The notes beneath the pieces were generated by a model. That model searched no databases and was not told the origin of the DNA. It saw only the letters and a list, made by a program, of their open reading frames with translations. Below, piece by piece: positions 1,637-20,087 of a DNA stretch of 21,605 bases (positions are counted from its first letter, which is position 1; every line of letters starts with the position of its first letter). The translations under genes and the position numbers were made by a program. This DNA is from a virus, in the IMG/VR virus record IMGVR_UViG_3300008459_000482, positions 1 to 21,605 of that record, one strand, 5' to 3'.

Positions 1637-3397
1637 ATGCCAAATGAATTCGTAATAAAGAACGGATACTTCTCACAGGGAAGTTCTAACATAACAGGTT
1701 CACTAACAGTAACTGCAGGTGTAACTGCATCATTATTTGGAACCGCTTCATGGGCACAAAATGCCATAACCGCATCTTTTATAACAACAGCACAAACAGC
1801 ATCATATGTATTACAAGCAGTTTCAGCCTCCAGAGCAACATCGGCATCTAGAGCAGATTCTTCATCATATGCTATAACTGCATCTCACGCAACAGGTTTA
1901 GGTGTATTAAATCAAAATATTGTTATAACTGGTTCTTTGACTGTTACGAATGATTTAATCGTACAAGGATCTGCATCTGTACAATATATTACATCATCTC
2001 AATTAAACATTAATGATAATATTATAACAGTTAATACATTAACACCTTCGGTTAGATTTGGTGGTTTAGCTGTAATTGATTCTGGATCATCTCCACAACA
2101 ATCTGGTTCGTTATTATTTGATTCTACAAACAATCAATGGATATTTGTGCACCAATCATCTGCAGCTGCTGCAGTAACAAGTTCGGTGCTTATCATGGGT
2201 CCGCAAACATTTAATAACGTCGGTGGAGAAACTACACTTACTGCAAACCGTATAACAAAAGCAACAGGTGGTGATTTAGGAGAACATATTGGGGATTCTA
2301 ATATCACTGATACAGGCACATTGGTTTCTATTAATAGCAATACCATCATCACAGGTTCATTGAATGTAACTGCTGGTATTACTGGTTCACTATTAGGAAC
2401 TGCTTCATATGCACCAAACTTTGCAAATACAGATTTAACATTTACAAGCGCACGTTCACACAATATTGGTAGTAACTCGTTATTATTATCAACAAATGGT
2501 GAAGGTACGTTGTATATGGACCGATCGTTAATGCAATTAATTGCCCTAGGTAATGCTCGTTTATATATGGGTGATTTAGCATCTGGTTCCATATCACTTA
2601 AAAATAATTATTCAGGAATTTTATTTGATCAGAATGACTCATTATCTACAACAGCATTAACTTCAACATCAGCATCGATAAAAGTATATTCTCCGAAAAT
2701 AAAATTAGATTCCAATGTTACGATAACCGGGTCACTAACAACAACCGGTTCGGTTAAAATGAGTGGATTATCTAACTCAACTACTAGTAACGTTATATAT
2801 TATGATACTACTACCGGCGCATTAACATATGGTGCTGGAGCTAGCAATGCATTTCCATATACTGGCTCTGCACAAATTACCGGATCATTAGGAGTTACTG
2901 GTTCATTTAATGTATATAACTATGATATTTACAGTGGAACATATTATACCAATATTGATACCACAAACCAACAAATACAAAAAGTTTTTGGAATTGGTAT
3001 AGATCCACAACCAGGGACTGTTATTGATTGGGGCGATGAAACATTGAGTTCATTCAATTCATTCGGTGTAAGTGATATAACTGTTAATTGGGGTACTAAA
3101 ATTTTATATACAGCCGGCTCACCATTTGGAAATAATAAACCATCGGTAGATTGGGGTAATCGTTATTTAAGATATAGTAATACTACTACAGATACACCAC
3201 CTATATCAATCAACTGGGGTGCTGGAACATTGAATGATACTAACGGCGCAGTTGCACTAGAATGGGACGTACCAGGAACATTAACAGTGTCAGCATCAAT
3301 GGTATTATCAGCATCGGTTACTGCATCATCAGGTAACTCAGCAACAAGTGATGCAATATTACAAGCAACATTGTTATATTTATCTAACAATTTTTAA
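1637..3397 (+). CDS. Repetitive long tail fibre protein
   Basis: A 586-residue protein rich in Ala, Ser, Thr and Gly and very poor in Cys, typical of trimeric phage fibres. An 'ITGSLxVT' motif recurs at about five places (first at residues 19-26), twice followed by 'GTASWA' or 'GTASYA'. An Ala/Ser/Thr stretch around residues 38-90 repeats 'TASYxxxA'-like units and could form a coiled or beta-helical shaft. Residues 460-545 hold a second repeat built on I/V-x-W-G spaced about 21 residues apart. The C-terminus 'VSASMVLSASVTASSG' is again low complexity. The short N-terminus 'MPNEFVIKNGYFSQG' is probably the attachment end. It probably binds host surface receptors from the tail or baseplate. No chaperone or endosialidase-like C-terminal domain is visible. 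Family assignment is by composition and repeats, so the exact fibre class is open. Confidence 0.8.
   Translation: MPNEFVIKNGYFSQGSSNITGSLTVTAGVTASLFGTASWAQNAITASFITTAQTASYVLQAVSASRATSASRADSSSYAITASHATGLGVLNQNIVITGSLTVTNDLIVQGSASVQYITSSQLNINDNIITVNTLTPSVRFGGLAVIDSGSSPQQSGSLLFDSTNNQWIFVHQSSAAAAVTSSVLIMGPQTFNNVGGETTLTANRITKATGGDLGEHIGDSNITDTGTLVSINSNTIITGSLNVTAGITGSLLGTASYAPNFANTDLTFTSARSHNIGSNSLLLSTNGEGTLYMDRSLMQLIALGNARLYMGDLASGSISLKNNYSGILFDQNDSLSTTALTSTSASIKVYSPKIKLDSNVTITGSLTTTGSVKMSGLSNSTTSNVIYYDTTTGALTYGAGASNAFPYTGSAQITGSLGVTGSFNVYNYDIYSGTYYTNIDTTNQQIQKVFGIGIDPQPGTVIDWGDETLSSFNSFGVSDITVNWGTKILYTAGSPFGNNKPSVDWGNRYLRYSNTTTDTPPISINWGAGTLNDTNGAVALEWDVPGTLTVSASMVLSASVTASSGNSATSDAILQATLLYLSNNF
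3020..3274 (+). repeat. About 21-residue W-G repeat inside the fibre gene
   Basis: Within the fibre gene, codons for Trp465, Trp485, Trp506, Trp527 and a last degenerate Trp543 are spaced by 20, 21, 21 and 16 residues. Each of the first four is followed by Gly: 'VIDWGDETL', 'TVNWGTKIL', 'SVDWGNRYL', 'SINWGAGTL'. The fifth reads 'ALEWD'. The units are about 60-63 nt long and differ at the nucleotide level, so they are an old protein repeat rather than a recent DNA duplication. Confidence 0.6.
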
Positions 3398-3402
3398 TCA
3401 AA

Positions 3403-3410
3403 ATATTTAT
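3403..3410 (+). promoter_or_regulatory. Late-promoter-like element ATATTTAT before the gene at 3431
   Basis: ATATTTATTAATATAAA lies six bases after the fibre stop codon and 20 nt before the next ATG. It matches the element seen before other structural genes. Another copy of the octamer lies inside the end of the fibre gene at 3376-3383, so which of the two is used, if either, is unknown. Confidence 0.45.
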
Positions 3411-3430
3411 TAATATAAAATATAAAGTAT

Positions 3431-3859
3431 ATGGCAACAAGTTTAACGTTTACAGGTGCATTGTTAGCATCATCATCATTATTATTAAGTGCATCTCAAT
3501 TAACACCTATTGTAATCGCACAAGGTGGAACAAATGGTGCTCGTATTTATAGTATCGCAGTACAAACCAATTCGGCGAATGCTGCCAACCACGTATTAGG
3601 ACTTTCTAGTTCAGCTGGTATAGCACGTATGGGTACATTAGCAGTTACTGCCAATTCAGGTTATACTGCAGGTACTGCAATATTTGATTATTATGGTAAC
3701 GCATTATTTGCTGGTGTATTTCAAAAACAAAAAGATGCAAATGGGGTACCTTATTATAATTTACCACCAAATACATTTTTAACAATGCAAATATCAGCAT
3801 CAGTATTTCTATCAGCTGCTACTACATCTAGTATATTTGTTAATGGTGAATTTTACTAA
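3431..3859 (+). CDS. Small structural protein candidate, function unknown
   Basis: A 142-residue protein, Ala/Ser/Thr-rich like the neighbouring fibre, with no Cys. The N-terminus 'MATSLTFTGALLASSSLLLS' is moderately hydrophobic. I regard it as a beta strand region of a virion protein rather than a signal peptide, because phage tail genes do not usually carry one and there is no basic N-region. The middle ('RIYSIAVQTNSANAANHVL', 'AIFDYYGNALFAGVFQ') and end ('YYNLPPNTFLTMQISASVF') look like a small all-beta sandwich. It sits between two fibre-type genes and starts after a late-type element, so a minor fibre, tip or decoration role is inferred. I do not recognise the family. Confidence 0.65.
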   Translation: MATSLTFTGALLASSSLLLSASQLTPIVIAQGGTNGARIYSIAVQTNSANAANHVLGLSSSAGIARMGTLAVTANSGYTAGTAIFDYYGNALFAGVFQKQKDANGVPYYNLPPNTFLTMQISASVFLSAATTSSIFVNGEFY

Positions 3860-3861
3860 TC

Positions 3862-4782
3862 ATGGCTAGAACAGGTTTTGAACGAGGGTACGCCCAAGGT
3901 ATACTGCAAGGTGCTAAAACAGGCTTAGGTATGGCAGGATATCGAACCGGATATGCCGGTGGTCGAACTGATGGTACTGCTAATATGGATAAAATGCAAG
4001 ATCCAGTATTATTAGCATCAGCTCGAAATGATTGTCCCTTTTTCTATTGGAATGCTGATAACATGACATTATCAGGTACAAACGTTACTGCAGTCACAAA
4101 TCTATTAGGAACATATAATCCACTAACACAATCTGCGATATCATCATTTACTGTATCGAGTGACCCATTATATGTAGCACAAGCAGTAAACAATAACCGA
4201 GCAGCGATAACATTTGATAGTAATGATGCATTCGGTGTATTGAATACTGTTGTACCAAATATGACAAATACCGCAGAAATGACATTAATGATGGTTTGTC
4301 GTGTGCCATCATCTAATGGGGTTGTATTATTTTGTAAAAACAATGAATCATTATTTCCAGGTACCGGTACAGCCGGTGATTTAATTATAGAATCACTTAA
4401 TGGTGGTTTTGAAGTAACATTTGTTGGTAATACATATTCTAGTACGAATTATGGAATGTGGACAGCTGGTGATGCAAAAACAAGAAGCGGTGATTGGGTA
4501 TTGCTTACAGTTAAAGCAAGATTAAGTCAACCTAATGGTGCTGGTAGTGAAATAGAAATATATGTTAATGGTACGGAAAATATGGTTAATACATTTGGAC
4601 CAATTACATCATTTGCCGGCACAACATGGTCTAACAGTTATATCATATTTGGAAATGGTAGTTCGTTTGTAAATGGGGGAGGTACTATTGCAGCAGGTTT
4701 AATAACAGAGCAATGGATAAATGAATCTGAACAATTACGGATAGAAAATTATTTTAGAGATTATTATGGAATTAAGTTTTAA
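3862..4782 (+). CDS. Lectin-like jelly-roll protein with glycine-periodic N-terminus
   Basis: A 306-residue protein starting two bases after the previous stop codon. Residues 1-42 are unusual: a run of G-x3-G spacings ('GYAQGILQGAKTG', 'GYRTGYAGGRTDG') that could form a glycine-zipper or packed helical attachment segment. The rest resembles a concanavalin-type sandwich: 'AITFDSNDAFGVLNT', 'EMTLMMVCRVPSSNGVVLF', 'WVLLTVKARL', 'SEIEIYVNGTENMV', 'SYIIFGNGSSF'. It closes with 'GLITEQWINESEQLRIENYF' and 'RDYYGIKF', where an ELRIENYFRDYYG-like ending is common in phage adhesins of this fold. It probably acts as a third adhesion module on the tail. Its last 17 bases overlap the next gene. Confidence 0.7.
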   Translation: MARTGFERGYAQGILQGAKTGLGMAGYRTGYAGGRTDGTANMDKMQDPVLLASARNDCPFFYWNADNMTLSGTNVTAVTNLLGTYNPLTQSAISSFTVSSDPLYVAQAVNNNRAAITFDSNDAFGVLNTVVPNMTNTAEMTLMMVCRVPSSNGVVLFCKNNESLFPGTGTAGDLIIESLNGGFEVTFVGNTYSSTNYGMWTAGDAKTRSGDWVLLTVKARLSQPNGAGSEIEIYVNGTENMVNTFGPITSFAGTTWSNSYIIFGNGSSFVNGGGTIAAGLITEQWINESEQLRIENYFRDYYGIKF

Positions 4783-4969
4783 CCCAGAAACGCAGTATTT
4801 AGTATTTAAACCTGTATATACTGACACAATGGATATTATATCAGTTTATCAAGGACAACCATATCCTACATATGTTATAGACCCATCAACGTGCACTCAA
4901 GAAGAAATGCAACAATATTGGGGTTATGGTTTAACTCATTTATTTGATATTGTAGATAAACTGGTTTGA
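4766..4969 (+). CDS. Small protein of unknown function
   Basis: A 67-residue protein whose ATG lies inside the end of the lectin-like gene (17-base overlap, different frame). It reads as a compact, Tyr- and aromatic-rich domain ('YLVFKPVYTDTMDIISVYQ', 'PYPTYVIDPSTCTQEEMQQY', 'WGYGLTHLFDIVDKL') with no membrane segment. The overlap suggests coupled translation with the adhesin gene, so it may be a small structural or assembly partner. No family is recognised. It is kept because the frame extends well beyond the overlap and ends just before a regulatory-looking gap. Confidence 0.6.
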   Translation: MELSFNPETQYLVFKPVYTDTMDIISVYQGQPYPTYVIDPSTCTQEEMQQYWGYGLTHLFDIVDKLV

Positions 4970-4993
4970 TTTATATTATAATTTTACTATAAT
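4966..4993 (+). promoter_or_regulatory. Sigma70-like promoter candidate before the coiled-coil gene
   Basis: TTGATT (4966-4971), a 16-nt spacer and a perfect TATAAT (4988-4993) precede the gene at 5022 and would place transcription start near 5000. In DNA this AT-rich such matches arise by chance, so the call is modest. The spacer and -10 box form a perfect inverted repeat. Confidence 0.35.
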
Positions 4994-4996
4994 ATA
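4972..4996. repeat. Perfect 9-bp AT-only inverted repeat
   Basis: TATATTATA (4972-4980) and TATAATATA (4988-4996) are exact reverse complements separated by a seven-base loop. As RNA the hairpin would be weak, and no T-run follows, so it is not a convincing terminator. Because it spans the possible -10 box it could instead be a binding site for a dimeric regulator, or simply chance in AT-rich DNA. Confidence 0.4.
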
Positions 4997-5021
4997 TTAT
5001 ACATTAAAAAAATAAATTGTT

Positions 5022-5291
5022 ATGACAAAAAAATTAGACAAAGAACATTTAGAGGCAATTACTCAGCTTCGTGATGAATTCGCAAAAAACAACTCATTAT
5101 TGGGTAGTGTTACATTAGAAGAATATTCATTAACATCTAAATTAGATATTGTGAAATCTCAAAAAGAACAATTATTCAATCAGTTTGCAATGCTTCAAGA
5201 AAGAGAATCTGCATTATTTGAATTGCTTAAAGAACGTTATGGGGATGGTTCTATAAATATAGAAGAAGGTACATTTACTCCAGCTGTATAG
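5022..5291 (+). CDS. Small coiled-coil protein upstream of the sheath
   Basis: An 89-residue, highly charged helical protein. Residues 1-72 have heptad-like spacing of hydrophobics among Glu, Lys and Gln ('HLEAITQLRDEF', 'SLTSKLDIVKSQKEQLFNQF', 'LQERESALFELLKERYG'), interrupted around residues 25-35, which suggests a helical hairpin or coiled coil. A short polar tail, 'GDGSINIEEGTFTPAV', follows. I recall small coiled-coil proteins of this kind in phage genomes without a defined role. Its position directly before the sheath suggests a tail or tail-assembly factor. No good ribosome-binding site precedes the ATG; the leader is almost pure A/T. Confidence 0.65.
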   Translation: MTKKLDKEHLEAITQLRDEFAKNNSLLGSVTLEEYSLTSKLDIVKSQKEQLFNQFAMLQERESALFELLKERYGDGSINIEEGTFTPAV

Positions 5292-5308
5292 TTTGGAGTT
5301 AGTTAACT

Positions 5309-5316
5309 ATATTTAT
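5309..5316 (+). promoter_or_regulatory. Late-promoter-like element ATATTTAT before the sheath gene
   Basis: ATATTTATTATAAATTAAAG lies exactly 22 nt before the sheath ATG, the same distance as before the tube and gp26-like genes. A strong Shine-Dalgarno sequence, AAAGGAG (5325-5331), follows at seven bases from the ATG. A T4-type TATAAATA also occurs at 5252-5259 but lies inside the preceding gene. Confidence 0.5.
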
Positions 5317-5338
5317 TATAAATTAAAGGAGTAATTGA

Positions 5339-7804
5339 ATGGCAGAAAGAACAGTATCGCCAGGTGTATTTACGAATGAAGTAGATCAATCGTTTTTAGC
5401 CGGAGGCGTTGCACAAATCGGAGCTGCGGTAGTTGGACCAACCGTAAAAGGTCCTGCATTAATTCCAACAAAAGTAACATCGTGGGGAGAATTCCAACAA
5501 ATATTCGGATCATATACAGATGATTCTTATGTACCATTTGTGGTTCAAGATTATTTGAGAAATGGTGGAAATTCTATGTTGGTAACACGTCTTTTATATG
5601 AAGATGGGTATTATTTAACAAAAGGTACTTTAGCAATTATCGCAAAGTCAGGATCTGTTAGCAAAGTTACACACGTTTTACACCCAACAGCCCCAGTTGG
5701 ATATACTGCAGGTGCAAATGTGTTTGAATCATCTAGTTTACAAAGCACAGGATCAAATGGTTTAGGACGTTTTAATTTAACAATCTCGGGTTCATTTAAT
5801 ACAGTATCTGTACCAGGCTATGATGCGTATTTAGCAGGTAATGGTACAGCTATATCAGCATCTATTAATCCATCTGATAATGATTATATTGTTAAGAAAT
5901 TTGGTAAATCGCCAAAATCAGTAGATTATCCAGTATATGTTGCATATGAAGATAAAGATGCATATGCATCATTTGCAGACGCAACTAAAGTATATACGGA
6001 ATTAGCTATTATAAACACATATGATTTTAACAATGTAGATTATAAAGTAGCAACAACACCATGGTTAACATCACAAAAAATTGGAAGTGTTGTTAAAGAT
6101 TTATTTAGATTTCATACATTATCACATGGAACATCTGTAAACCACGAAGTAAAAATTGGTATTCGTGATATTAAAACAACAGATGAAGTATCAGATCCAA
6201 CGGGATATGCATCATTTACGGTTGAAGTTCGTAGAGTTAATACAACAGATATTTTAAATTCTCCATATTCTTCACAAGATACTGACTTAGTACCTGATAT
6301 CATTGAAACATTTCAAAATGTTAATTTAAATCCAGATTCTGCTAGATATATTTCTAAAATTATTGGTGATAGATATCAAACAATTACAGATGCTGGTGAT
6401 ATTGTAAAAAATGGAGATTATCCTAATTTATCTAAATTTATTAGAGTTGAGGTAACAGATGCAGTTACTAATAAAACAAATGATAAATCATTAGTACCAT
6501 TTGGATTCCGTGCATTAAATACGCCAATACCAAACGTATCAGGTAGTGTGAATCTTTCTGCAGCGTCATATAATACATCGCAAGTAGCAACTACATATAG
6601 CAATAAAAGATATTTTGGATTTGACTTTACAAATGCAACTAACTTAAATTATTTATCACCAATACCAGCAACTGGGTTTACTACTGGTAGCAACGTTGAT
6701 TTCTATTTAGGAGATATGTTACAAGCAACGGCAAGTGCTTATCCATCATCAACAGCACCATATACAGGTTCATTAGAATCTTCATTAGTTGCAGGTACAT
6801 TTAGCGATAATGTTAAATTAGATACACGTAAATTTATAATTCCATTCCAAGGTGGTTTTGATGGAGCTCGTCCAAATTTACCTAAATATTCTGGTATTAA
6901 TATTACTGACGCAAATACATTTGGATTTGATTGTTCAGGTACTACTACCGGAGGAACTAAAGCATATAATAAAGCATTTACATTGTTATCAAATAGCGAT
7001 ATATATGATATTAATATGTTATTAACGCCTGGTATTTTAGATAGTAAACACCCACTAGTAACAGCTGCAGCAACTGCATTAGCAGAAGGTCGTCAAGATA
7101 CATTTTATGTAATGGATTCGAATGAGATTGATGCAAGTATATCTGATGTAACAACTCAAATTAATTCATTTGACAGTAATTATGTTGCAACATATTGGCC
7201 ATGGGTTAGAATTACAAACCCAGCTAAAAATGTTCCATTATGGGTACCACCTAGTATCGTAATACCAGGAGTATTAGCATTTAATGATAGTATTGCAGCA
7301 CCATGGTATGCTCCTGCAGGTTTAACTCGAGGTGGATTAACAAGTGTTTCTGAAACATATATTAATTTATCACAAGCAATGCGTGATACATTGTATGAAG
7401 CTCGTATTAATCCTATTGCAACATTCCCTAATGAAGGAGTAGTGGTTTGGGGTCAAAAGACATTACAGGCTCGACCAAGTGCATTAGATCGCGTAAATGT
7501 TCGTAGATTATTAATCGATGTTAAAAAATTCATTGCATCGGCAACTAGATATTTAGTATTCCAACAAAATACATCACAAACTAGAGCTGAGTTTGAATCT
7601 ATAGTTAATCCATATTTAGATTCTGTTAAATCTAAACAAGGATTGTATGCATTTAGAGTAGTAATGGATAGTACAAATAATACACCGGCTGAAATTGATA
7701 GAGGAATTTTGTATGGTCAGTTGTTTTTACAACCAACTAGAACCGCAGAGTTTATTATATTAGACTTTAATATACAGCCAACTGGTGCATCATTTCCAGT
7801 ATAA
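5339..7804 (+). CDS. Contractile tail sheath protein (T4 gp18-like)
   Basis: An 821-residue sheath subunit, longer than T4 gp18 (about 659). The N-terminus 'AERTVSPGVFTNEVDQSFL' followed by 'VGPTVKGPALIPTKVTSWGEFQQIFGSY' and 'DYLRNGGNSMLVTRLL' is the classic sheath opening, containing the arm that links neighbouring subunits. Residues about 100-480 are variable, Ser/Thr/Asn-rich and probably form outward-facing insertion domains. The conserved C-terminal core, about residues 700-821, has 'LDRVNVRRLLIDVKKFI', 'YLVFQQNTSQTRAEF', 'GLYAFRVVMDSTNNTP' and 'RGILYGQLFLQPTRTAEF'. The protein polymerises around the tail tube and contracts to drive the tube through the host envelope. It has its own late-type element, a strong ribosome-binding site and a terminator, consistent with very high late expression. 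Confidence 0.95.
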   Translation: MAERTVSPGVFTNEVDQSFLAGGVAQIGAAVVGPTVKGPALIPTKVTSWGEFQQIFGSYTDDSYVPFVVQDYLRNGGNSMLVTRLLYEDGYYLTKGTLAIIAKSGSVSKVTHVLHPTAPVGYTAGANVFESSSLQSTGSNGLGRFNLTISGSFNTVSVPGYDAYLAGNGTAISASINPSDNDYIVKKFGKSPKSVDYPVYVAYEDKDAYASFADATKVYTELAIINTYDFNNVDYKVATTPWLTSQKIGSVVKDLFRFHTLSHGTSVNHEVKIGIRDIKTTDEVSDPTGYASFTVEVRRVNTTDILNSPYSSQDTDLVPDIIETFQNVNLNPDSARYISKIIGDRYQTITDAGDIVKNGDYPNLSKFIRVEVTDAVTNKTNDKSLVPFGFRALNTPIPNVSGSVNLSAASYNTSQVATTYSNKRYFGFDFTNATNLNYLSPIPATGFTTGSNVDFYLGDMLQATASAYPSSTAPYTGSLESSLVAGTFSDNVKLDTRKFIIPFQGGFDGARPNLPKYSGINITDANTFGFDCSGTTTGGTKAYNKAFTLLSNSDIYDINMLLTPGILDSKHPLVTAAATALAEGRQDTFYVMDSNEIDASISDVTTQINSFDSNYVATYWPWVRITNPAKNVPLWVPPSIVIPGVLAFNDSIAAPWYAPAGLTRGGLTSVSETYINLSQAMRDTLYEARINPIATFPNEGVVVWGQKTLQARPSALDRVNVRRLLIDVKKFIASATRYLVFQQNTSQTRAEFESIVNPYLDSVKSKQGLYAFRVVMDSTNNTPAEIDRGILYGQLFLQPTRTAEFIILDFNIQPTGASFPV

Positions 7805-7822
7805 TCTAATTGATTTAAAAAT

Positions 7823-7848
7823 AAGGTAGGATTCGTCCTACCTTTTTT
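7823..7848 (+). terminator. Intrinsic terminator after the sheath gene (UUCG loop)
   Basis: AAGGTAGGA (7823-7831) and TCCTACCTT (7836-7844) form a perfect nine-pair stem capped by the tetraloop TTCG. The run of six T at 7843-7848 begins in the last stem bases. Stem, stable loop and U-run give a strong rho-independent terminator 19 nt after the sheath stop codon. Confidence 0.9.
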
Positions 7849-7857
7849 ACTTTACTG

Positions 7858-7865
7858 ATATTTAT
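7858..7865 (+). promoter_or_regulatory. Late-promoter-like element ATATTTAT before the tube gene
   Basis: ATATTTATAATAAAA starts ten bases after the terminator U-run and lies 22 nt before the tube ATG. An AAGGA ribosome-binding site (7877-7881) follows. The whole 30-base leader closely resembles the one before the gene at 8523 and has the same length. A terminator directly followed by this element is the best positional argument that it is a promoter. Confidence 0.6.
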
Positions 7866-7887
7866 AATAAAAGTATAAGGAAATAAA

Positions 7888-8436
7888 ATGGCACATACAC
7901 CACTTATTGATAGAGTAAATACCGTATACCCGGGATCAACATTTGCGGATTTTGGGATAGAAAATGATTTTAACCAAGCTGCATATTCATGGGAACCTAA
8001 AAAATCCAATCATTTTATTATGTTGATTAGTGGAATTCCTGCATTTTTAATTAAATCCTCAGCAAAACCTAGTTTGTCAAATGGTGAAGTTACCGTAGAT
8101 CATATCAATATTCAAAGATATTTTAAAGGTAAAACGGTATGGAATACTATATCAGTAACAATGTATGATGCAATTGTACCGTCTGGAGCACAAGCAGTAA
8201 TGGATTGGGTTAGAGATCATCACGAATCTGCAACAGGTAGAGATGGTTATAAAACACATTATGCTCGTGAAATAAAATTACAACAACTTTCGCCATTAGG
8301 GGAAGTTATAGAAGAGTGGTTATTGCATAATACATTTATAACTGAATCTAATTTTGGAACATTAGATTGGAGTACTGAAGATGTAGTTAACATCGAAATG
8401 ACATTGAGATACGATTGGGCATTTTTCAAAAAGTAA
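7888..8436 (+). CDS. Tail tube protein (T4 gp19-like)
   Basis: A 182-residue protein, close to the 163 residues of T4 gp19. Recognisable tube features are 'NHFIMLISGIPAFLIKSSAKPS', 'VTVDHINIQRYFKGKTVWNTISVTMYDAI' and 'GAQAVMDWVRDHHES'. The end carries 'EIKLQQLSPLGEVIEEWLLHNTFI', 'NFGTLDWSTEDVVNIEMTLRYDWA'. This layout of antiparallel strands with a final hydrophobic 'LRYDWAFF' is typical of phage and T6SS-type tube subunits. Hexameric rings stack inside the sheath to form the DNA channel. The gene stands alone between a late-type element and an intrinsic terminator. It directly follows the sheath gene, as usual for contractile tails. Confidence 0.93.
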   Translation: MAHTPLIDRVNTVYPGSTFADFGIENDFNQAAYSWEPKKSNHFIMLISGIPAFLIKSSAKPSLSNGEVTVDHINIQRYFKGKTVWNTISVTMYDAIVPSGAQAVMDWVRDHHESATGRDGYKTHYAREIKLQQLSPLGEVIEEWLLHNTFITESNFGTLDWSTEDVVNIEMTLRYDWAFFKK

Positions 8437-8457
8437 AACAATATATATCAATTACGG

Positions 8458-8483
8458 AATGGGAGATTTTTCTCCCATTTTTT
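8458..8483 (+). terminator. Intrinsic terminator after the tube gene
   Basis: AATGGGAGA (8458-8466) and TCTCCCATT (8471-8479) form a perfect nine-pair stem around a TTTT loop, followed by further T residues to 8483. It lies 21 nt after the tube stop codon. Together with the terminator after the sheath, it brackets the tube gene as a separate transcription unit. Confidence 0.9.
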
Positions 8484-8492
8484 GTGTTCTGT

Positions 8493-8500
8493 ATATTTAT
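8493..8500 (+). promoter_or_regulatory. Late-promoter-like element ATATTTAT before the gp26-like gene
   Basis: ATATTTATAATAAAG lies ten bases after the terminator and 22 nt before the ATG at 8523. An AAAAGGA ribosome-binding site follows at 8512-8518. The arrangement is nearly a copy of the tube leader. Confidence 0.6.
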
Positions 8501-8522
8501 AATAAAGTTATAAAAGGATAAA

Positions 8523-9302
8523 ATGAGTAACAAAATGACAGATCGATTAGACAATCAACACATTATTAACTTAGCAAGAAATCAATACGAACAACAAAAA
8601 CGTGTTACGATTCCGCCGGTTATAGTTAAATTACCTAGTAACGGATTGATATATCCAGAATCATCTCCTTTAAGAAGTGGGGAAGTACAGTTAAGACACA
8701 TGACTGCATATGATGAAGATATTTTAACTAATAGTAGTTATATAAAAAATCAAGTAGTATTTGATAAATTGTTAGAATCATTAATTGTTACACCAGGCGT
8801 ATCTCCAGATGATATTGCATCGAGTGATAGAGAAAGTTTATTAATTTCTGCTAGGATTTTAGGATATGGAAGTGAATATCCAGTATTAGTTCAAGATCCA
8901 ACCTCATCGAATTCTATAGAACGAGTAGTTGATTTGTCAAAACTATCATTTAAACCATTTAATTTAATTCCAGACGAAAATGGTGAATTTGAATATATAG
9001 TAGATAATGGTGATATTTTAAAATTCAAATATCTAACATCGAGAGAAACATCTAATATAAATTCAGAAACATCATTATCAGATATTACTCGAATGAGTAT
9101 AACATCAGTAAATACAAATCGCGATACAATGTTTATCAGTGATTATGTTAAATATGAACTAGTAGCAGCTAATGCAAAAAAGTTTAGAAACTATATCTTA
9201 GAAAATATGTCTGGTGTTAATTTTGAAGTGGAATTAGAAGGTGAAAATGGAGGCACCTTCAAAACTACATTTCAACTTGGACTCGACCTTTTTTGGTTTT
9301 AA
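8523..9302 (+). CDS. T4 gp26-like baseplate/tail assembly protein (likely tail assembly chaperone)
   Basis: A 259-residue protein of the T4 gp26-like baseplate group. The key region is 'PPVIVKLPSNGLIYPESSPLRSGEVQLRHMTAYDEDIL' (about residues 35-75), then 'KLLESLIVTPGVSPDDIASSDRESLLISARILGYG'. The ending 'FEVELEGENGGTFKTTFQL' is also characteristic, in front of 'GLDLFWF'. In phage tails the genes between tube and tape measure usually encode chaperones that coat the tape measure during assembly, and T4 genes 26 and 51 are adjacent in the same way. This gene overlaps the next one by about 60 bases in the +1 frame. Its role as chaperone versus hub component is not settled by the sequence. Confidence 0.82.
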   Translation: MSNKMTDRLDNQHIINLARNQYEQQKRVTIPPVIVKLPSNGLIYPESSPLRSGEVQLRHMTAYDEDILTNSSYIKNQVVFDKLLESLIVTPGVSPDDIASSDRESLLISARILGYGSEYPVLVQDPTSSNSIERVVDLSKLSFKPFNLIPDENGEFEYIVDNGDILKFKYLTSRETSNINSETSLSDITRMSITSVNTNRDTMFISDYVKYELVAANAKKFRNYILENMSGVNFEVELEGENGGTFKTTFQLGLDLFWF

Positions 9303-9504
9303 TTCATCACACCAAACAGAATTACATTCTAGATTATACGATTTAATTATAGCAGGTAACGGTTGTTGGGACTGGGATACTGTATATCATTTACCACTTC
9401 ATATACGACGTCTATGGATTAGTAAGATAAATGCTCAGCGATCTAAAGATAATGAAGAGGCTGAAGAACGAGCAAATCGTGCGAAAAATAAAACACATAG
9501 ATAA
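9247..9504 (+). CDS. gp51-like / C-terminal tail assembly chaperone segment, overlapping the gp26-like gene
   Basis: The frame is open from 9238 to 9504. If translated alone, the ATG at 9247 is preferred, giving 85 residues. GAAGG (9237-9241) lies five bases before it, and an in-frame GTG is at 9241. The segment beyond the overlap contains 'QTELHSRLYDLIIAGNGCWDWDTVYHLPLHIRRLWISKI' and ends in a charged tail, 'AQRSKDNEEAEERANRAKN'. The 'WDTVYHLPLHIRRLWI' pattern is what I associate with the gp51-like partner of gp26 in T4-type phages. The first 15-20 residues, read from the overlap, look uninformative, which leaves open that the segment is made as a frameshifted extension of the upstream protein (about 326 residues in total). 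It probably chaperones the tape measure encoded next. Confidence 0.7.
   Translation: MEAPSKLHFNLDSTFFGFNSSHQTELHSRLYDLIIAGNGCWDWDTVYHLPLHIRRLWISKINAQRSKDNEEAEERANRAKNKTHR
9288..9297 (+). other. Possible frameshift site: six-T run in the gp26/gp51 overlap
   Basis: CTT TTT TGG (9288-9296) is read in the upstream frame; the downstream frame reads ACC TTT TTT GGT. A phenylalanine tRNA on TTT at 9291-9293 would re-pair perfectly after a +1 slip (9292-9294) or a -2 slip (9289-9291). Either slip enters the frame of the 9247 gene just before the upstream TAA at 9300. This is a candidate only: separate initiation at 9247 explains the layout equally well. Confidence 0.4.
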
Positions 9505-9526
9505 TGTTATAAAAATGCATATCTAA

Positions 9527-9534
9527 ATATTTAT
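9527..9534 (+). promoter_or_regulatory. Late-promoter-like element ATATTTAT before the tape measure gene
   Basis: ATATTTATATTAAATAG lies 22 nt after the stop at 9504 and 18 nt before the tape measure ATG. Unlike most other copies it is not followed by a good Shine-Dalgarno sequence; the leader ends in GAAATTCGCC. Confidence 0.45.
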
Positions 9535-9552
9535 ATTAAATAGAAATTCGCC

Positions 9553-11397
9553 ATGATTACCAAAACTCAATATGATTTAATATATCGTCTTAAACAAAAA
9601 CCAGCTCATGGACGAGCGGACCGAACTAATACAGATATTCAAAAAGAATTTGAAGCTTGGCTAAAAACTCTAGAAAAAGATATACCAAATGCTGATGCAT
9701 TATTAAATACTTACACCGAATCACTTAAAAATTTAGATACTGCAAATGCTCGTACCGCAATGGGTATGAACAAATTAATTGGTATTCATAATAAATTTTC
9801 AAGTCAGATAAGTGAATTAGTAAAAAATATAACGTATTTTGAAGAAACTAATAAAGCATTAGGTAAAACATTTGGATTAACTGGTAATAAAGCTAAAGTT
9901 TTCGCAAATGATATGCGTAATATTGCTGTAGGCTTGGATATTGGAGAAGATAAATTATTTGGATATGTTGCAGGATTAAAAGATTTAACGAGCGGATTTA
10001 TATCTAGTAATAAAATAAACATGAAATTCCGCGATGGTATGATAAAAGGTCAAGCAATAATGCAAAACCAATTAGAAGTAACCGCCGCAGCTGCAGAAGG
10101 ATATGAAGCATATGCATCTACTTTTGCCGATTCTAGTTTAGATGCGTTAGCAATCCAAAAAAAATTAGCAGATACATTACAAAACGAAACCGGATTAGAT
10201 TCATTATATATTCAATCAACATTAACTGAAGAAATTGGAAATTTAGCGGCAGACGTCCAAATGCATTATAGCAAAATGCCAGGTAGTTTAGAATTAGCTG
10301 TTTTAAAAAGTAAACAGTTAGGTATGAATATGGAAACATTGTATGCTGCTGGTAAAAACATGTTAAATATAGAATCATCAATTGGTCAAGAATTAGAATA
10401 TCAATTAATATCAGGTCAGCGATTATTAACTGCAGATAAGAAAAGTTTAACTAATGAATATCGTTTAGCAACAATTCGAGGCGATGGTGCTAAACAAGCT
10501 GAGTTAATGACTCATTTCTTAAAAGAACAGAGTGGTGTATTAAAAAATAATATATATGCTCGTGAAAAAGCTGCTCAATTATTTGGAATAAATGAGGGCG
10601 ATTTAATGAAAAGCTTACGTCAAACTGAGTTGATTAGTAAACTAGGTGCCGATCGATTAATGGCGTTAAATCAAGGCGATGTTCAAAAAGTTGTAGCTGA
10701 AATACGAAAACAACCTACGACCGATCAACAAAAAGCAGAACGAGAAAAATTAATTGGTGAATTAATAAAAAATAGTGATAAACGATCAACGGCTGAAATA
10801 ACAAATGATCATTTAGCTAGTATTGATACTTATTTGAGAGCTGTTGTTGGCAAAGATATTAATATTAATACAAAAGCTGGTGAAGGTCAAGAGGCATCAT
10901 TACGAGATGCTATTAAAGAGGGTATTAAACCAATAGAAAAGTTAATGACGAGCTTTGATAAAAATGTCGATATGTTCGGAGCTATAGGTATATCAGAAGG
11001 AACTATTAAAGCAATATCTACTCCAATATCTGAATTAGTAAAGATAATGCCAGGTATCGGAACACTTATTTCAGATGCGGTTACTAAATTTAGTGAATTA
11101 ATTACAATTAATTTACCAAATGCATCAGCAAAGCCTGTAAATGATTCATTAATTATACCGGATAGAGGTCCAATATTAAGACCTGCTAAAAATGATGTAA
11201 TTGCAGCATTTAGGCCAAATGACGTTGTGCACAATACACTTAATAGTATGGGTTCTAATAATTCCGCAGCATCAATTGATTACAATAGATTAGCAATGGC
11301 AATTACATCTGCAATGAAAAATGTAAAAGTAGAGGCAACATTAAAAGCTGATACAGTATTTGGTGAAACATATTTAAATAGAAGAAATATAAGCTAA
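9553..11397 (+). CDS. Tape measure protein (T4 gp29-like)
   Basis: A 614-residue, largely helical protein, close in length to T4 gp29 (590). Long helical stretches run through residues 1-520, with many Ala, Leu, Lys and Gln ('NKLIGIHNKFSSQISELVKN', 'QAIMQNQLEVTAAAAEGYEA', 'EKAAQLFGINEGDLMKSLRQ'). A weakly hydrophobic part near residues 480-525 ('ELVKIMPGIGTLISDAVTKF') could be a membrane-interacting segment. From residue 539, 'GPILRPAKNDVIAAFRPNDV' resembles the conserved extended motif near the end of many tape measures. The last 25 residues ('VKVEATLKADTVFGETYLNR') are short beta strands. The protein fills the tube lumen and sets tail length. Its place after the chaperone-type pair and before baseplate genes supports the call. 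No peptidoglycan hydrolase domain is visible. Confidence 0.85.
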   Translation: MITKTQYDLIYRLKQKPAHGRADRTNTDIQKEFEAWLKTLEKDIPNADALLNTYTESLKNLDTANARTAMGMNKLIGIHNKFSSQISELVKNITYFEETNKALGKTFGLTGNKAKVFANDMRNIAVGLDIGEDKLFGYVAGLKDLTSGFISSNKINMKFRDGMIKGQAIMQNQLEVTAAAAEGYEAYASTFADSSLDALAIQKKLADTLQNETGLDSLYIQSTLTEEIGNLAADVQMHYSKMPGSLELAVLKSKQLGMNMETLYAAGKNMLNIESSIGQELEYQLISGQRLLTADKKSLTNEYRLATIRGDGAKQAELMTHFLKEQSGVLKNNIYAREKAAQLFGINEGDLMKSLRQTELISKLGADRLMALNQGDVQKVVAEIRKQPTTDQQKAEREKLIGELIKNSDKRSTAEITNDHLASIDTYLRAVVGKDININTKAGEGQEASLRDAIKEGIKPIEKLMTSFDKNVDMFGAIGISEGTIKAISTPISELVKIMPGIGTLISDAVTKFSELITINLPNASAKPVNDSLIIPDRGPILRPAKNDVIAAFRPNDVVHNTLNSMGSNNSAASIDYNRLAMAITSAMKNVKVEATLKADTVFGETYLNRRNIS

Positions 11398-16079: not shown

Positions 16080-17402
16080 ATGGTAGTAGATGATTTAATA
16101 GATTTAAATGCGTTATTCACATATATACAAGATAAAAAGACATTATTAGTTCCGGTGTTAGCAGATCCAAATTTGCATGCATCTCAAAATAATGTAACTT
16201 GTATATATGTTTATACTGAAGATGACGTGGAACGCATAGTACCCATACGCCACACTGAACAACTTATATCATTTTCCGAACATTTAACTAGGTTTCTAGA
16301 ATTAACAGACATCTTTGTATATGATAAGAAACAGTGGCTTCAATTAGGAGGAAATGATGCCGTATGGGATATCAAGACACTTTGGTGGTATACTTACGGA
16401 GAAGCCTATGATGAAACACATTACTATACCACAGCTCATACATTTTATTGGAGACGTCATCAATCATTAGCTAATGTGAATGCACTTATACCGTTAATGC
16501 AACATTTAGCAATGTGTCAGAAAATACGAAAATATGCTTGGCCAATGTGTTTGAATTCTAAATTAACAAATTCATATTTACAGTTCAATGAAATATATCC
16601 GGCAGTGTTTGCATCAATTGAACAAAACGGATTGCGAGTTAATGAAGAATTTAAATCACCAGATTTGATTACTAATAATTTTGTGTTTAGCAATTATCAT
16701 TATCATACTACGACAGGTAGACCCTCAAATGCATATCGAGGATTCAACTATGCGGCAATGAACAAGGAGGATGGTACGCGTGATGCATTTTGTAGTAGAT
16801 TTGATAATGGTGCTTTGGTTGAAATGGATTTCGATGCATACCACGTTAGATTGATTGCTAGATTGATTGGATATAATTTACCTGCAGGTTCTGTGCATGA
16901 ATATTTTGGTAGATTTTATTTCGATACCAACACATTATCAGAAGAACAATATGACCAAGCAAAACAAATAACATTCCGATTGTTATATGGTGGTATTGAT
17001 TCTGAGTTTTTATCAATTCCATTTTTTAAACAAGTTAACGATTTTATTTATGATTTGTGGAGACAATGGAAAGCAAATGGATTTATAAAGACTCCGGTAT
17101 TGAAACGAACAATTAGTTCCGAGACAATAAAAAACATGACAGCAAATAAACTATTCAATTATTATTTGCAATCAGTTGAAACTGAAGTGTCTGTTCAAAA
17201 ATTAAATCAAGTTCAAAAAATATTATCAGAATATCAAACTTGCATGATATTATATACATACGATTCAATTTTATTTGACGTACCTGTAACAGAAGCCAAG
17301 GAAATTTTGCCTAAAATTAAGAATATTTTAGAGGCAGGCAATTTTCCGGTCAAAGTTAAAGTTGGAGGTATTTATAGTAAAATGAATAGTATTACGTTAT
17401 GA
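16080..17402 (+). CDS. Minimal, divergent family A DNA polymerase
   Basis: A 440-residue protein carrying the Pol A palm and fingers motifs in order. 'TTTGRPSN' (210-217) matches the conserved TGR-x-S segment, with Arg214 at the place of Klenow Arg668. Motif A is 'VEMDFDAYHVRLIARLIG' with catalytic Asp250. Motif B is 'AKQITFRLLYGG' with Lys295, Phe299 and Tyr303 for Klenow Lys758, Phe762 and Tyr766. 'NYYLQ' (360-364) keeps the N-x3-Q pair. Motif C is 'LYTYDSILFDV' with Asp395. Differences are marked: His255 at the Glu710 place, Tyr291 at the Arg754 place, and YDS instead of HDE. Residues 1-150 have the length and some order of a 3'-5' exonuclease domain, but I see no D-x-E or Y-x3-D active site. 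It presumably replicates phage DNA; activity needs testing. It ends in a four-base overlap with the next gene. Confidence 0.85.
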   Translation: MVVDDLIDLNALFTYIQDKKTLLVPVLADPNLHASQNNVTCIYVYTEDDVERIVPIRHTEQLISFSEHLTRFLELTDIFVYDKKQWLQLGGNDAVWDIKTLWWYTYGEAYDETHYYTTAHTFYWRRHQSLANVNALIPLMQHLAMCQKIRKYAWPMCLNSKLTNSYLQFNEIYPAVFASIEQNGLRVNEEFKSPDLITNNFVFSNYHYHTTTGRPSNAYRGFNYAAMNKEDGTRDAFCSRFDNGALVEMDFDAYHVRLIARLIGYNLPAGSVHEYFGRFYFDTNTLSEEQYDQAKQITFRLLYGGIDSEFLSIPFFKQVNDFIYDLWRQWKANGFIKTPVLKRTISSETIKNMTANKLFNYYLQSVETEVSVQKLNQVQKILSEYQTCMILYTYDSILFDVPVTEAKEILPKIKNILEAGNFPVKVKVGGIYSKMNSITL

Positions 17403-18424
17403 CAATAGATTCAATAATAACCGAATGGACATATAGACTACCTAAAGGGTATCCAACATCAGATTCAGACTATGAAATTCTTCGAAGTGTATTATCTGAA
17501 ATGACCGCATTATCTGATCAGGCACAACAATTAATAATCGATCGTGCTAAAGGTAATAATACAAAACAACTAACTATCATAAAAGAAGGATCTCCAGATT
17601 ATGATGCTGCGATTAGATCTAGATTAAAAATACCTGAAGATCAACCAATTCCTCCGGTTACTGGAACATATGCATTACAAAAAGGTCCAATGTCACTAAA
17701 GCCAGAAGATGCTAGAATATTTAATGCGTTATGGCCAGAGACAATGAATAGTGCGATAATTGGAAAAGGTGAGATTGCATTATATTGGTTATATCAATAC
17801 CAAAATCCATCAGTTGATACATTTGATAATAGAGGTGATGATCAGCCAGATTTAACAATTGGTAGCGATGATGTTGAAGTAAAAAGTTATCCATCCCACA
17901 ATGCGAGAATTGGGTTAGGTCGATTCCAAAAATTTAAATCAACTAGACAATTAGTTTCAATTGTATTTGGTATTCATACATTAGCACAAACATTTGGTAG
18001 TAACAAATCAGAACGCGTATTTTCAGATTTAGCTTTCGGCGGTAATGAATTAACAGAAGCATTTAAAACATTTATTGCTGTTGATAGTTTAGCTCAAAAA
18101 GTTGAATTAATTGAATCATTTCCTATATTTAAAAGTTTGTTTGATCAGATTGATTTAGTAAAACAAGAATTAAATTTATCCGGAGATCAACCATATGAAC
18201 CACAAGTTGCAGCTGCAGTTTTACTTAGAAGAATATTAGAAGAAAAATTAGATGTTAAGCCAGGTGATGATGGTTTTATTATAAATACTAGTAGTAAAAA
18301 TCCAGAAGATATATTTGCATATCAAATTAATTTTGAAGCATTAGAACCAGAAACGATATTAGCAAATGTGGTTATTAATGGTGGAACTATTGAAGCAAAT
18401 TACAAAAACCTATTTGGCTTATAA
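17399..18424 (+). CDS. PD-(D/E)XK nuclease-like protein coupled to the polymerase
   Basis: A 341-residue protein whose ATG overlaps the polymerase stop (ATGA). The N-terminus 'IITEWTYRLPKGYPTSDSDYEILRSVLSEM' resembles a short domain I recall from other environmental phage proteins. Residues 121-162 contain a plausible PD-(D/E)XK site: helix 'GKGEIALYWLYQYQ' with Glu125, then 'DDQPDLTIGSDDVEVKSY', giving Asp151, Glu160 and Lys162 (PD-x8-E-V-K). The remainder, after 'RIGLGRFQKFKSTRQLVSIV', is mostly helical with no further motif recognised. This points to a metal-dependent DNA nuclease, perhaps a recombination or repair enzyme, a host-DNA degrader, or a substitute proofreading or processing partner for the polymerase. 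The function is inferred from the motif and the coupling only. A nuclease-fold structural protein is an alternative. Confidence 0.6.
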   Translation: MTIDSIITEWTYRLPKGYPTSDSDYEILRSVLSEMTALSDQAQQLIIDRAKGNNTKQLTIIKEGSPDYDAAIRSRLKIPEDQPIPPVTGTYALQKGPMSLKPEDARIFNALWPETMNSAIIGKGEIALYWLYQYQNPSVDTFDNRGDDQPDLTIGSDDVEVKSYPSHNARIGLGRFQKFKSTRQLVSIVFGIHTLAQTFGSNKSERVFSDLAFGGNELTEAFKTFIAVDSLAQKVELIESFPIFKSLFDQIDLVKQELNLSGDQPYEPQVAAAVLLRRILEEKLDVKPGDDGFIINTSSKNPEDIFAYQINFEALEPETILANVVINGGTIEANYKNLFGL

Positions 18425-18435
18425 GGAATACAAAA

Positions 18436-18822
18436 TTGAAAACACAATTACTGTGCACATTTGCACATAAATCAGATATAAATATAATAACAGAATATAT
18501 ACAGAATAACTATGAGATACCCGAATCTCGTATATTCATATTCTCAAATGCAAATGTACCTAATAATTTATATTGTACATACAATGCGTTAGATTCAAAC
18601 AGACGAGGTCAAAACACAATTAGCATACACCGTAAAAAAGAAACAAATACATTGTATACGGTTAATGCTTTAAATGAAGTTATCCGGGTAGTAAATAATG
18701 GAGTATTAGATAAGTCATATCAGTTAGATTGGACAGCATATCAAAATTCATTTATACTTACTGATGACAATGGTTATCGAGTTATTAATTTAGTATTTTT
18801 CAAGAAAATTGCTTGGAATTAA
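18436..18822 (+). CDS. Conserved phage protein of unknown function, TTG start
   Basis: A 128-residue protein beginning with TTG at 18436. An AAGGA (18423-18427) upstream, overlapping the previous stop codon, and 'MKTQLLCTFA' as a sensible N-terminus support this start. The sequence is compact and mixed alpha/beta: 'LLCTFAHKSDINIITEYIQN', 'NLYCTYNALDSNRRGQNTIS', 'IHRKKETNTLYTVNALNEVI' and 'LDKSYQLDWTAYQNSFILT'. I recall proteins with the 'HRKKETNTLYT.NALN' stretch in many uncultured T4-like phages, always without a function. It follows the nuclease-like gene by 11 bases and probably belongs to the replication operon. Confidence 0.72.
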   Translation: MKTQLLCTFAHKSDINIITEYIQNNYEIPESRIFIFSNANVPNNLYCTYNALDSNRRGQNTISIHRKKETNTLYTVNALNEVIRVVNNGVLDKSYQLDWTAYQNSFILTDDNGYRVINLVFFKKIAWN

Positions 18823-18829
18823 TATTTAT
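18822..18829 (+). promoter_or_regulatory. Late-promoter-like element ATATTTAT before the gene at 18855
   Basis: ATATTTATTTATATATTAT starts at the last base of the previous stop codon and ends 25 nt before the ATG at 18855. It is the only such gene-proximal copy in the replication block, which suggests that this one gene is expressed late. Confidence 0.45.
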
Positions 18830-18854: not shown

Positions 18855-19223
18855 ATGATAAAGTTAAAAAAACTATTAGGCGAAGCTGGGTATAAAGGTG
18901 ATACTTATTATAGTCGTGGAGAATGGTTTAGTAGAAGCGATGACAAAGCATCATTAGCAACAAAAACTAAACCAGAATGGGATGCATTTGTAGATAAATA
19001 TAATAGTATGCCTGGGTTTGAAACTACAACTAAAGCAGATGGTAAAACATATAGTGCCGAAATTAAAAATTTAGAAACTGGGTTGCGATGGATAGTTCAA
19101 AGTAACGGAGGTAACAATTGGTCTTATATCGGTCGTAAGGTAGGATATACAGGAAACCCAGAATTTTTACGCGATGTTGAAGCACTTATAGCAAACTTTG
19201 AAGAAATAAATGGAAACATTTAA
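18855..19223 (+). CDS. Candidate capsid-internal (ejected) protein with T4-type capsid-targeting leader
   Basis: A 122-residue protein. Its first ten residues, MIKLKKLLGE, followed by Ala, resemble the capsid-targeting sequence of T4 internal proteins (MKTYQEFIAE/A). In both, Leu or Ile is at position 8, Glu at 10, and cleavage would follow the L/I-x-E site used by the T4 prohead protease gp21. The remaining 112 residues ('YYSRGEWFSRSDDKASL', 'TKPEWDAFVDKYNSMPGFET', 'TGLRWIVQSNGGNNWSYIGR', 'PEFLRDVEALIANFEE') look like a small folded, roughly charge-balanced domain with no Cys. It has a late-type element upstream although it sits among replication genes. The inferred role is packaging in the head and delivery with the DNA. 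The short motif could be chance; no enzymatic function is recognised. Confidence 0.6.
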   Translation: MIKLKKLLGEAGYKGDTYYSRGEWFSRSDDKASLATKTKPEWDAFVDKYNSMPGFETTTKADGKTYSAEIKNLETGLRWIVQSNGGNNWSYIGRKVGYTGNPEFLRDVEALIANFEEINGNI

Positions 19224-19290
19224 TATTAAAAAAATTAACAACTTACTTGGAATTACCGCATTAATTATCTATTATATAATTAATAAATAA
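19210..19290 (+). CDS. Possible 26-residue membrane peptide
   Basis: An ATG at 19210, overlapping the end of the previous gene by 14 bases, opens a frame ending in TAA at 19288-19290: METFNIKKINNLLG, then a hydrophobic stretch 'ITALIIYYII' and NK. It is long enough to cross or insert in a membrane only marginally. GAAGAA upstream is a weak ribosome-binding site. It fills most of the otherwise empty gap before the ssDNA-binding protein gene. Such short frames occur by chance in AT-rich DNA, so this is a low-confidence call. Confidence 0.22.
   Translation: METFNIKKINNLLGITALIIYYIINK
19253..19280 (+). promoter_or_regulatory. Promoter candidate before the ssDNA-binding protein gene
   Basis: A perfect TATAAT (19275-19280) is preceded 16 nt upstream by a poor -35 match, TTACCG. 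Transcription from here would start near 19287 and give an A/U-rich leader of about 36 bases ending in AAAGG and the ATG at 19323. The site overlaps an inverted repeat, so promoter and RNA-hairpin readings compete. Confidence 0.3.
19260..19284. repeat. Perfect 9-bp inverted repeat in the ssDNA-binding protein leader region
   Basis: ATTAATTAT (19260-19268) and ATAATTAAT (19276-19284) are exact reverse complements around a seven-base loop. If transcribed from upstream, this gives a weak hairpin followed by almost 40 unstructured A/U-rich bases up to the ATG. T4 gp32 represses its own mRNA by binding an unstructured A/U-rich leader next to a folded element, so an autogenous operator is possible but unproven. 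Confidence 0.35.
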
Positions 19291-19322
19291 CATAAATTAA
19301 TAATTTAACAAAAGGCAAAATT

Positions 19323-20087
19323 ATGGCTTTAAATTTAGACGCTATCAAAGCGAAACTTAACCAATTAAACAAGAGTGACGAAAAGAAAAACAACTTGTGG
19401 AAACCTGAAGCAGGTAAAACTCGTATTCGTATCGTTCCTTATGTACACAGAAAAGATAATCCGTTCTTGGAATTATATTTTCACTATGACATTGCAAAAA
19501 AATCAATGTTATCTCCAATCAGTTTTGGGAATGCAGATCCAATCGTAGAATTTGCAGAAAAGTTAAAGAAAACGGGCGACAAAGATGAGTGGATCATGGG
19601 TCGTAAAATTGAACCTAAAATGAGAACATATGTTCCTGTTATCGTTCGCGGTAAAGAAGCAGAAGGTGTTAAATTTTGGGGATTCGGTAAACAAATCTAT
19701 ACTGAATTATTATCAATTGTATCAGATCCAGATTACGGCGACATTACAGACTTAATGAATGGTCGTGACATTGATGTTGAGTTTACACCAGCAGAAGGTG
19801 GAGGTTTTCCTAAAACTACAATTCGTGTAAAACCAAATACACAACCAGCAACAGACGATAAATCAATTGCTGAGAAAATCATGAACCAACCTGAAATCAC
19901 TGACATTTTTCCTGAACCATCTTATGACGAATTACAAAAAGCGTTAGAAGATTGGATGAATCCTGAAAATGCAGATGCAGATGTAGAAACATCATCAAGC
20001 ACAAGCGAAGACACATCAGCATCAACAACTACAAAAACACCTAAAGTGGAAAACGTAGCTGATGCATTTAATGATTTATTTAACTAA
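19323..20087 (+). CDS. gp32-like single-stranded DNA-binding protein
   Basis: A 254-residue protein. The N-terminal helix 'LDAIKAKLNQLNKSDEKKNN' and 'LWKPEAGKTRIRIVPYVHRK' match the basic N-domain and first strand of gp32-type proteins. The core contains 'NPFLELYFHYDI', 'DPIVEFAEKLKKTGDKDEWI', 'MRTYVPVIVRGKEAEGVKFW', 'FGKQIYTELLSIVSDPDYGD' and 'DIDVEFTPAEGG', an OB-fold layout. The C-terminal 45 residues are acidic and Ser/Thr-rich and end in 'VADAFNDLFN', the tip that typically recruits replication partners. T4 gp32 binds zinc through His and three Cys; this protein has no Cys at all, so that site is absent. It coats ssDNA at replication and recombination intermediates, here next to RecA and a flap nuclease. 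The AAAGG ribosome-binding site is seven bases before the ATG. Confidence 0.85.
   Translation: MALNLDAIKAKLNQLNKSDEKKNNLWKPEAGKTRIRIVPYVHRKDNPFLELYFHYDIAKKSMLSPISFGNADPIVEFAEKLKKTGDKDEWIMGRKIEPKMRTYVPVIVRGKEAEGVKFWGFGKQIYTELLSIVSDPDYGDITDLMNGRDIDVEFTPAEGGGFPKTTIRVKPNTQPATDDKSIAEKIMNQPEITDIFPEPSYDELQKALEDWMNPENADADVETSSSTSEDTSASTTTKTPKVENVADAFNDLFN

Follow-up and report, generated by a model that had tools for sequence, protein, structure and literature searches.

Short and long N-terminal leaders as putative capsid-targeting signals in uncultured T4-like phages

Why should a gene set among replication genes begin with a ten-residue peptide that resembles the leader of the T4 internal proteins? 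The question is raised by a 122-aa protein encoded in IMG/VR virus record IMGVR_UViG_3300008459_000482, a 21.6-kb virus record from a T4-like phage that was analysed over its whole length (the window). This gene probably encodes a capsid-targeted cargo of the T4-internal-protein kind, which would be addressed to the head by its leader, cut by a gp21-type protease, packaged and ejected. The reading builds on what was observed of the gene itself, the shared leader, its modular exchange, the agreement of motifs, the protease gene of relatives, the genomic slot and the association with an upstream element; from these, by analogy with T4, we infer packaging in the virion and ejection. The window carries a tail sheath gene at 5339 and a hub-like gene at 8523, and a UvsX comparison places Microcystis phage Mel-JY01 closest among named phages (56%). 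The open reading frame (ORF) starting with MIKLKKLLGE and Ala, as described in the initial annotation, was confirmed and is divided as follows.

18855-19223, + strand: leader gene, ATG start, 122 aa, N-terminus MIKLKKLLGEAGYKG
18855..18884, + strand: leader peptide MIKLKKLLGE, residues 1-10, predicted capsid-targeting propeptide
18882..18887, + strand: predicted gp21-type cleavage Glu10/Ala11 (L-G-E/A), with the motif of candidate gp23/gp22 sites and at the leader-swap point
18885..19220, + strand: mature cargo, residues 11-122 (112 aa, 12.6 kDa, pI 5.2)

The leader as a genome-wide signal

The leader is not a coincidence. In five related genomes, 29 genes (10, 4, 7 and 6 in four long relatives and 2 in Mel-JY01; expected 0.01-0.04 each) start with a strict short pattern, M-x-[KR]-h-x-x-h-h-x-E, whereas shuffled N-termini would give 0.13; among about 4,100 internal methionines the pattern matches only once. 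The initial annotation had suggested looking for further proteins with such a start, and many were thus found once the search was run on relatives. When both leader formats and looser starts are counted, there are 14 leader genes in G001, 5 in G002, 14 in G008, 12 in G003 and 4 in Mel-JY01. In Mel-JY01 the genes at 60276, 60923 and 62056 begin with MIKLKSLLQE, MIKLKSLLKE and MIKLMSLVTE. Across about 260 DNA stretches there are 218 distinct leader ORFs, whose mature parts, otherwise unrelated, form 99 clusters. Starts recruited on the weak criterion M[IMLKE][KR]L alone have Leu or Ile at positions 7 and 8 in nearly every case where Glu10 is present, and conservation collapses at position 11.

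A longer form, (M)xKLxxILAENMRRFGTKNLxE, heads more than 100 proteins and has a length of about 18-24 aa, compared with 10 aa for the short one. It often begins like the short leader (MIKLKNILAE followed by NMRRFGTKNLNE) and adds NMRRFGTKNLxE, and both formats end in L-x-E. A DNA scan for its core, with the final Glu not required, returned at least 120 stretches; among the matches listed, the motif is N-terminal in 120 of 121, Glu stands at the predicted P1 position in 116 of 121, and most also have L-x-E directly before the NMRRF core. A whole-protein search with the cargo of L005, a distant relative of the window protein, matched many contigs over about residues 4-24 only, mostly at 72-95% identity. 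In the long leader, fourfold-degenerate sites differ by 0.55 (saturation 0.66) and codon positions 1 and 2 by 0.16; selection therefore acts on the peptide. No significant match to the long leader was found in 50,697 phage records.

A signal peptide was considered and rejected, as the leader has no sufficiently long hydrophobic stretch. Two further shared modules were observed. The C-terminal tag KYDASGIDTPGDPNM forms exactly the last 15 residues of 14 proteins, several with different middles, and 13 of the 14 also carry a short N-terminal leader. A block resembling a calcium-binding loop, DxDQNNNGYPDxTE, is found behind the leader in several cargos that are otherwise unrelated.

L041:8490-9434, L058:10151-11137, L067:10490-11667, L022:15377-15994: examples of the KYDASGIDTPGDPNM tag
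L029:390-722, L098:10818-11237: long-leader examples of the DxDQNNNGYPDxTE block

Head proteins, promoter-like element and cargo slot

The leader agrees with that of T4 at the positions that matter there; the initial annotation had pointed to its length, hydrophobic position 8, Glu10 and the following Ala. Residues 4 and 7 of the capsid-targeting sequence (CTS) of T4 IPIII are important for targeting, and residues 8 and 10 for processing (PMC9026906); the same positions are conserved here (L4, L7, L8 and E10 in the window protein). For a leader with Glu10 exchanged for Asp, the T4 precedent predicts no cleavage (PMC9026906). The gp21-type protease (PF03420) and gp23 (PF07068) are each found in 13 of 18 long relatives, and the records without them are mostly shorter fragments. 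In the head cassette of relatives the protease is accompanied by a gp22-like scaffold and gp23, and the terminal L-x-E of the leader is the motif found at candidate cut sites in both. The scaffold starts MAKSDLLKE/AIADAKAVKE/T, with SDLLKE/A as candidate cut; gp23 has a candidate cut at NQARQLVKE/ASS, and at QLISE/ANR in Mel-JY01. From residue 63 onward the clade gp23 can be aligned with mature T4 gp23*, which places the propeptide cut before residue 63; LVKE57 is the likely site and LLE48 an alternative. G001 is collinear with the window: gp21 lies at 65.6 kb, the sheath gene at 82.2 kb, and the slot that corresponds to that of the window gene holds leader genes at 95.9-96.9 kb. Given this synteny, gp21 is expected about 11 kb to the left of the window start.

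A promoter-like element precedes the gene.

18822..18829, + strand: ATATTTAT promoter-like element of the clade late-gene type (ATATTTATAnTAAA); it overlaps the preceding gene's stop codon

It sits 33 nt before the ATG of the leader gene and is absent in the window before ssb, the gene for a single-strand DNA-binding protein, and UvsX. The element marks mainly structural genes (sheath, tube, hub and others); it lies before 26 of 46 leader genes, compared with 119 of 684 others (Fisher p=1.3e-8), and in G001 it runs along the genes 34 times and opposite to them once. A tight ATATTTAT-ATGA pattern had no match in the window's record because the spacing is about 24-40 nt. In gene direction the T4 late promoter reads TATAAATA. 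The corresponding reading of the window element, ATATTTATA, is the reverse complement of the T4 form, so the element is 'late-type' by the genes it precedes and not by a match to T4 sequence. Thus the late-type element claimed in the initial annotation is present and is enriched before leader genes, but in reversed orientation relative to T4. The gene-direction form ATATTTATAnTAAA, the reverse complement of TATAAATA, is strongly strand-biased in the window (1637-9553), G001-G003 and G008, and is possibly a different late promoter.

The window gene occupies an exchangeable cargo slot, bordered by two genes.

18436..18822, + strand: invariant 128-aa gene (MKTQLLCTFAHKSD...), left border of the slot
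19323..20087, + strand: gp32-like single-strand DNA-binding protein gene (ssb; PHROG 1192, 2e-17), right border of the slot

A setting amid replication genes had been claimed for it, and these were indeed found nearby: a DNA polymerase-like gene at 16080, ssb at 19323 and UvsX at 20099. The slot between the 128-aa gene and ssb was compared among the window and contigs fetched by UvsX rather than by the leader. There are 34 distinct slots, 10 empty and 24 holding 35 genes, of which 30 carry a leader by pattern, 2 have near-leaders (MIKLKNVLKE and MIRLKTLLED) and 3 are HNH endonuclease-like.

Genes resembling HNH homing endonucleases (MNYEQIYKQLIDRAKTR..YKERHHIIP) lie beside leader genes in the slots of L031, L048, L064 and L195. 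In the window, a tiny ORF at 19217-19291 (METFNIKKINNLLGITALIIYYIINK) overlaps the end of the cargo gene and starts like a decayed leader. The conserved gene at 17399-18424, present in one copy per contig with a constant N-terminus (MTIDSIITE/WTYRLPKGYP), has a leader-like start ending in I-x-E and contains a stretch, DLTIGSDDVEVKSY, reminiscent of PD-(D/E)XK nucleases.

Leader exchange and the cargos

Four related proteins in viral contigs (L001-L004) share 60-66% identity with the window protein, and a deeper alignment-based search found nothing beyond them; the known members of the family come from five uncultured contigs, with L005 and L007 as distant relatives. L003 and L004 start MIKLKTLLGE, a short leader like that of the window protein, and L001 and L002 start with the long leader MKKNTLAENMQRFGTKNLDE followed by a homologous mature part. 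The swap between leaders is located at the predicted cut. In L001 and L002 the same ORF continues with another leader, MAENMRRFGTKNLKE, and another cargo and looks like a polyprotein, possibly cut in the head; the L004 contig has three leader genes in a row.

L001:1252-1950, L002:735-1433: ORF with two tandem leader-cargo units (internal MAENMRRFGTKNLKE)

Eight clusters with both leader types are an upper bound, and about six look sound; single linkage has partly chained C0 and C1 by way of modules that their members share, and in C17 the 'short' member has a long leader that the pattern missed. The initial annotation had counted homologues without the leader as evidence against its proposal. 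The leader is kept or exchanged for the longer one ending in L-x-E, and homologues without it are nearly all partial matches or pattern-missed leaders; a few seem to be really leaderless, among them relatives of the C33 and C51 clusters.

The mature domain of the window protein belongs to no family in PHROGs, Pfam or phage records, has no match in the PDB by profile search, and has no homology to T4 IPI, IPII or IPIII in the phages collection, Pfam or PHROGs. The structure prediction proposed in the initial annotation gave a mean predicted local distance difference test (pLDDT) score of 50, with a low-confidence layout of a helix, four strands and a helix, and PDB matches by Foldseek were insignificant (E >= 0.05). 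The best of these include a short alignment to RnlA repeats, from which no function was drawn. PADLOC gave no matches for cargos.

Some of the other leader cargos resemble effectors or virion enzymes. Pfam matches among 72 representatives comprise phage lysozymes, LysM, M23 peptidase, GDSL hydrolase, DUF5872 and ART-PolyVal, the last in one cargo just below the family cut-off. A five-member family of about 185 aa, conserved across relatives, has kinase-like motifs and a VDW motif at its end. The predicted structure bears a weak resemblance to aminoglycoside phosphotransferases, and there is a 27% match to an annotated serine/threonine kinase of a Bacillus phage.

L154:6754-7296, L234:7624-8163, L242:1483-2025, L246:5633-6187, L254:13094-13636: kinase-like family

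Another cargo family has a homologue in the head module of the unrelated Actinomycetia phage DSL-LC01, where it lies between a giant head-module protein and capsid maturation proteases.

In the proposed mechanism, the ten leader residues would bind the prohead core during assembly, and a gp21-type protease, as the shared motif suggests, would cut after Glu10. By analogy with the T4 internal proteins, the 112-residue remainder would stay in the head with the DNA and enter the host at infection, where the mature cargo would most likely block defence or help take-over. Anti-defence is, by analogy, the leading guess because T4 Ip1-3, with only the leader in common, are all reported to be type IV restriction inhibitors (PMC12373910). 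The window gene would be one member of a family-wide arsenal with short or long leaders.

Alternative explanations and known systems

Several observations weigh against a packaged cargo. L-x-E is a loose motif, and the gp22 and gp23 sites are candidates only. The gp21-like protease that the initial annotation proposed to look for in this genome was found in long relatives but is missing from the window, itself a fragment, and from the contigs nearest to it, which are short fragments. The function of the window cargo has no support from homology or structure, and the mature protein, at pI 5.2, departs from the small and basic character of T4 internal proteins; across the leader-protein set, pI exceeds 8 in 44% of cluster representatives. 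The leader might instead be a docking signal for the tail, baseplate, membrane or replication complex, with L-x-E incidental or the site of another protease. That several leader proteins are peptidoglycan hydrolases, which could act from the tail, and that the window gene lies among replication genes would suit such a role. We regard it as unlikely, given that the leader ends in the motif of the candidate gp23/gp22 sites of the same phages, that its conserved positions equal those of the T4 CTS (PMC9026906), and that the cargos are too diverse for a single structural role.

The shared start could also be an element acting at the DNA level, which spreads cassettes as a recombination hot spot or translation signal while the peptide has no function, as might be imagined for leader genes in an exchange slot, some of them beside HNH endonuclease-like genes. 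This idea is largely refuted and has very little probability left, since the amino acids are conserved although synonymous sites have diverged almost to saturation, and conservation ends at the predicted cut. A sub-case that differs from the proposed mechanism in its last step only is a protein that is packaged and cleaved but serves as a passive head component (core filler or DNA packing) rather than an effector. It finds a precedent in T4 IPIII, which affects head assembly (PMC9026906), and would suit a window cargo without known function. A slot that is empty in 10 of 34 relatives and whose content turns over is a poor fit for a head part that the phage needs, other leader cargos resemble enzymes, and T4 Ip1-3 are all restriction inhibitors (PMC12373910); the passive role is accordingly improbable, although it deserves more weight than a docking signal. 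Delivery of the window protein as an ejected, capsid-targeted cargo is thus preferred.

With somewhat less assurance, the evidence favours a wider picture, in which uncultured T4-like phages of lakes and seas have a genome-wide capsid-address system in two formats, with up to about 14 cargos per genome. Among these would be putative kinases, ADP-ribosyltransferases (ART) and peptidoglycan hydrolases as well as a polyprotein of two cargos to be cut in the head, such that leaders alone would list injected effectors. As far as shown by the literature searched, which left most subscription journals outside, the formats of the leader, the scale of the system and the range of its cargos are new. T4 internal proteins are the textbook case of proteins delivered together with DNA, and the principle is documented mainly in T-even coliphages (PMC3012670, PMC9026906, PMC12373910). 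A recognisable leader turns the hunt for injected proteins into a sequence search, by which the 99 cargo clusters, nearly all without known function, were read out. If the picture is true, they are a large pool, so far unexplored, of phage proteins that may be injected; the generality of injected effector arsenals in T4-like phages becomes directly testable, and new capsid-targeting tags are offered.

The closest known counterparts are T4 IPI, IPII and IPIII, which likewise have an N-terminal leader of about 10 residues ending in h-x-E with key positions 4, 7, 8 and 10, unrelated mature parts with only the leader in common, an exchangeable locus, and a T4-type head with gp21, gp22 and gp23 (seen here in long relatives). 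The clade differs in its leader (MIKLKxLLxE compared with MKTYQEFIAE), in a second, longer format with two L-x-E sites, in having up to about 14 genes per genome and a slot adjoining ssb, and in its many acidic and some enzyme-like cargos. T4 Alt, an ejected ADP-ribosyltransferase with a short propeptide removed by gp21, is comparable as a virion-delivered enzyme (PMC9026906) and in the ART-PolyVal match of one leader cargo, just under cut-off, whereas the window protein itself has no ART similarity. SPN3US and phiKZ-like phages also eject a large set of head proteins, some of them cut in the head by the prohead protease (PMC5694885, PMC10052503), and the Dar proteins of phage P1 are head-associated counter-restriction proteins (PMC12810830); the former belong to a different phage group and the latter to a different phage type, and both likenesses are drawn at the level of the delivered proteins rather than of their leaders.
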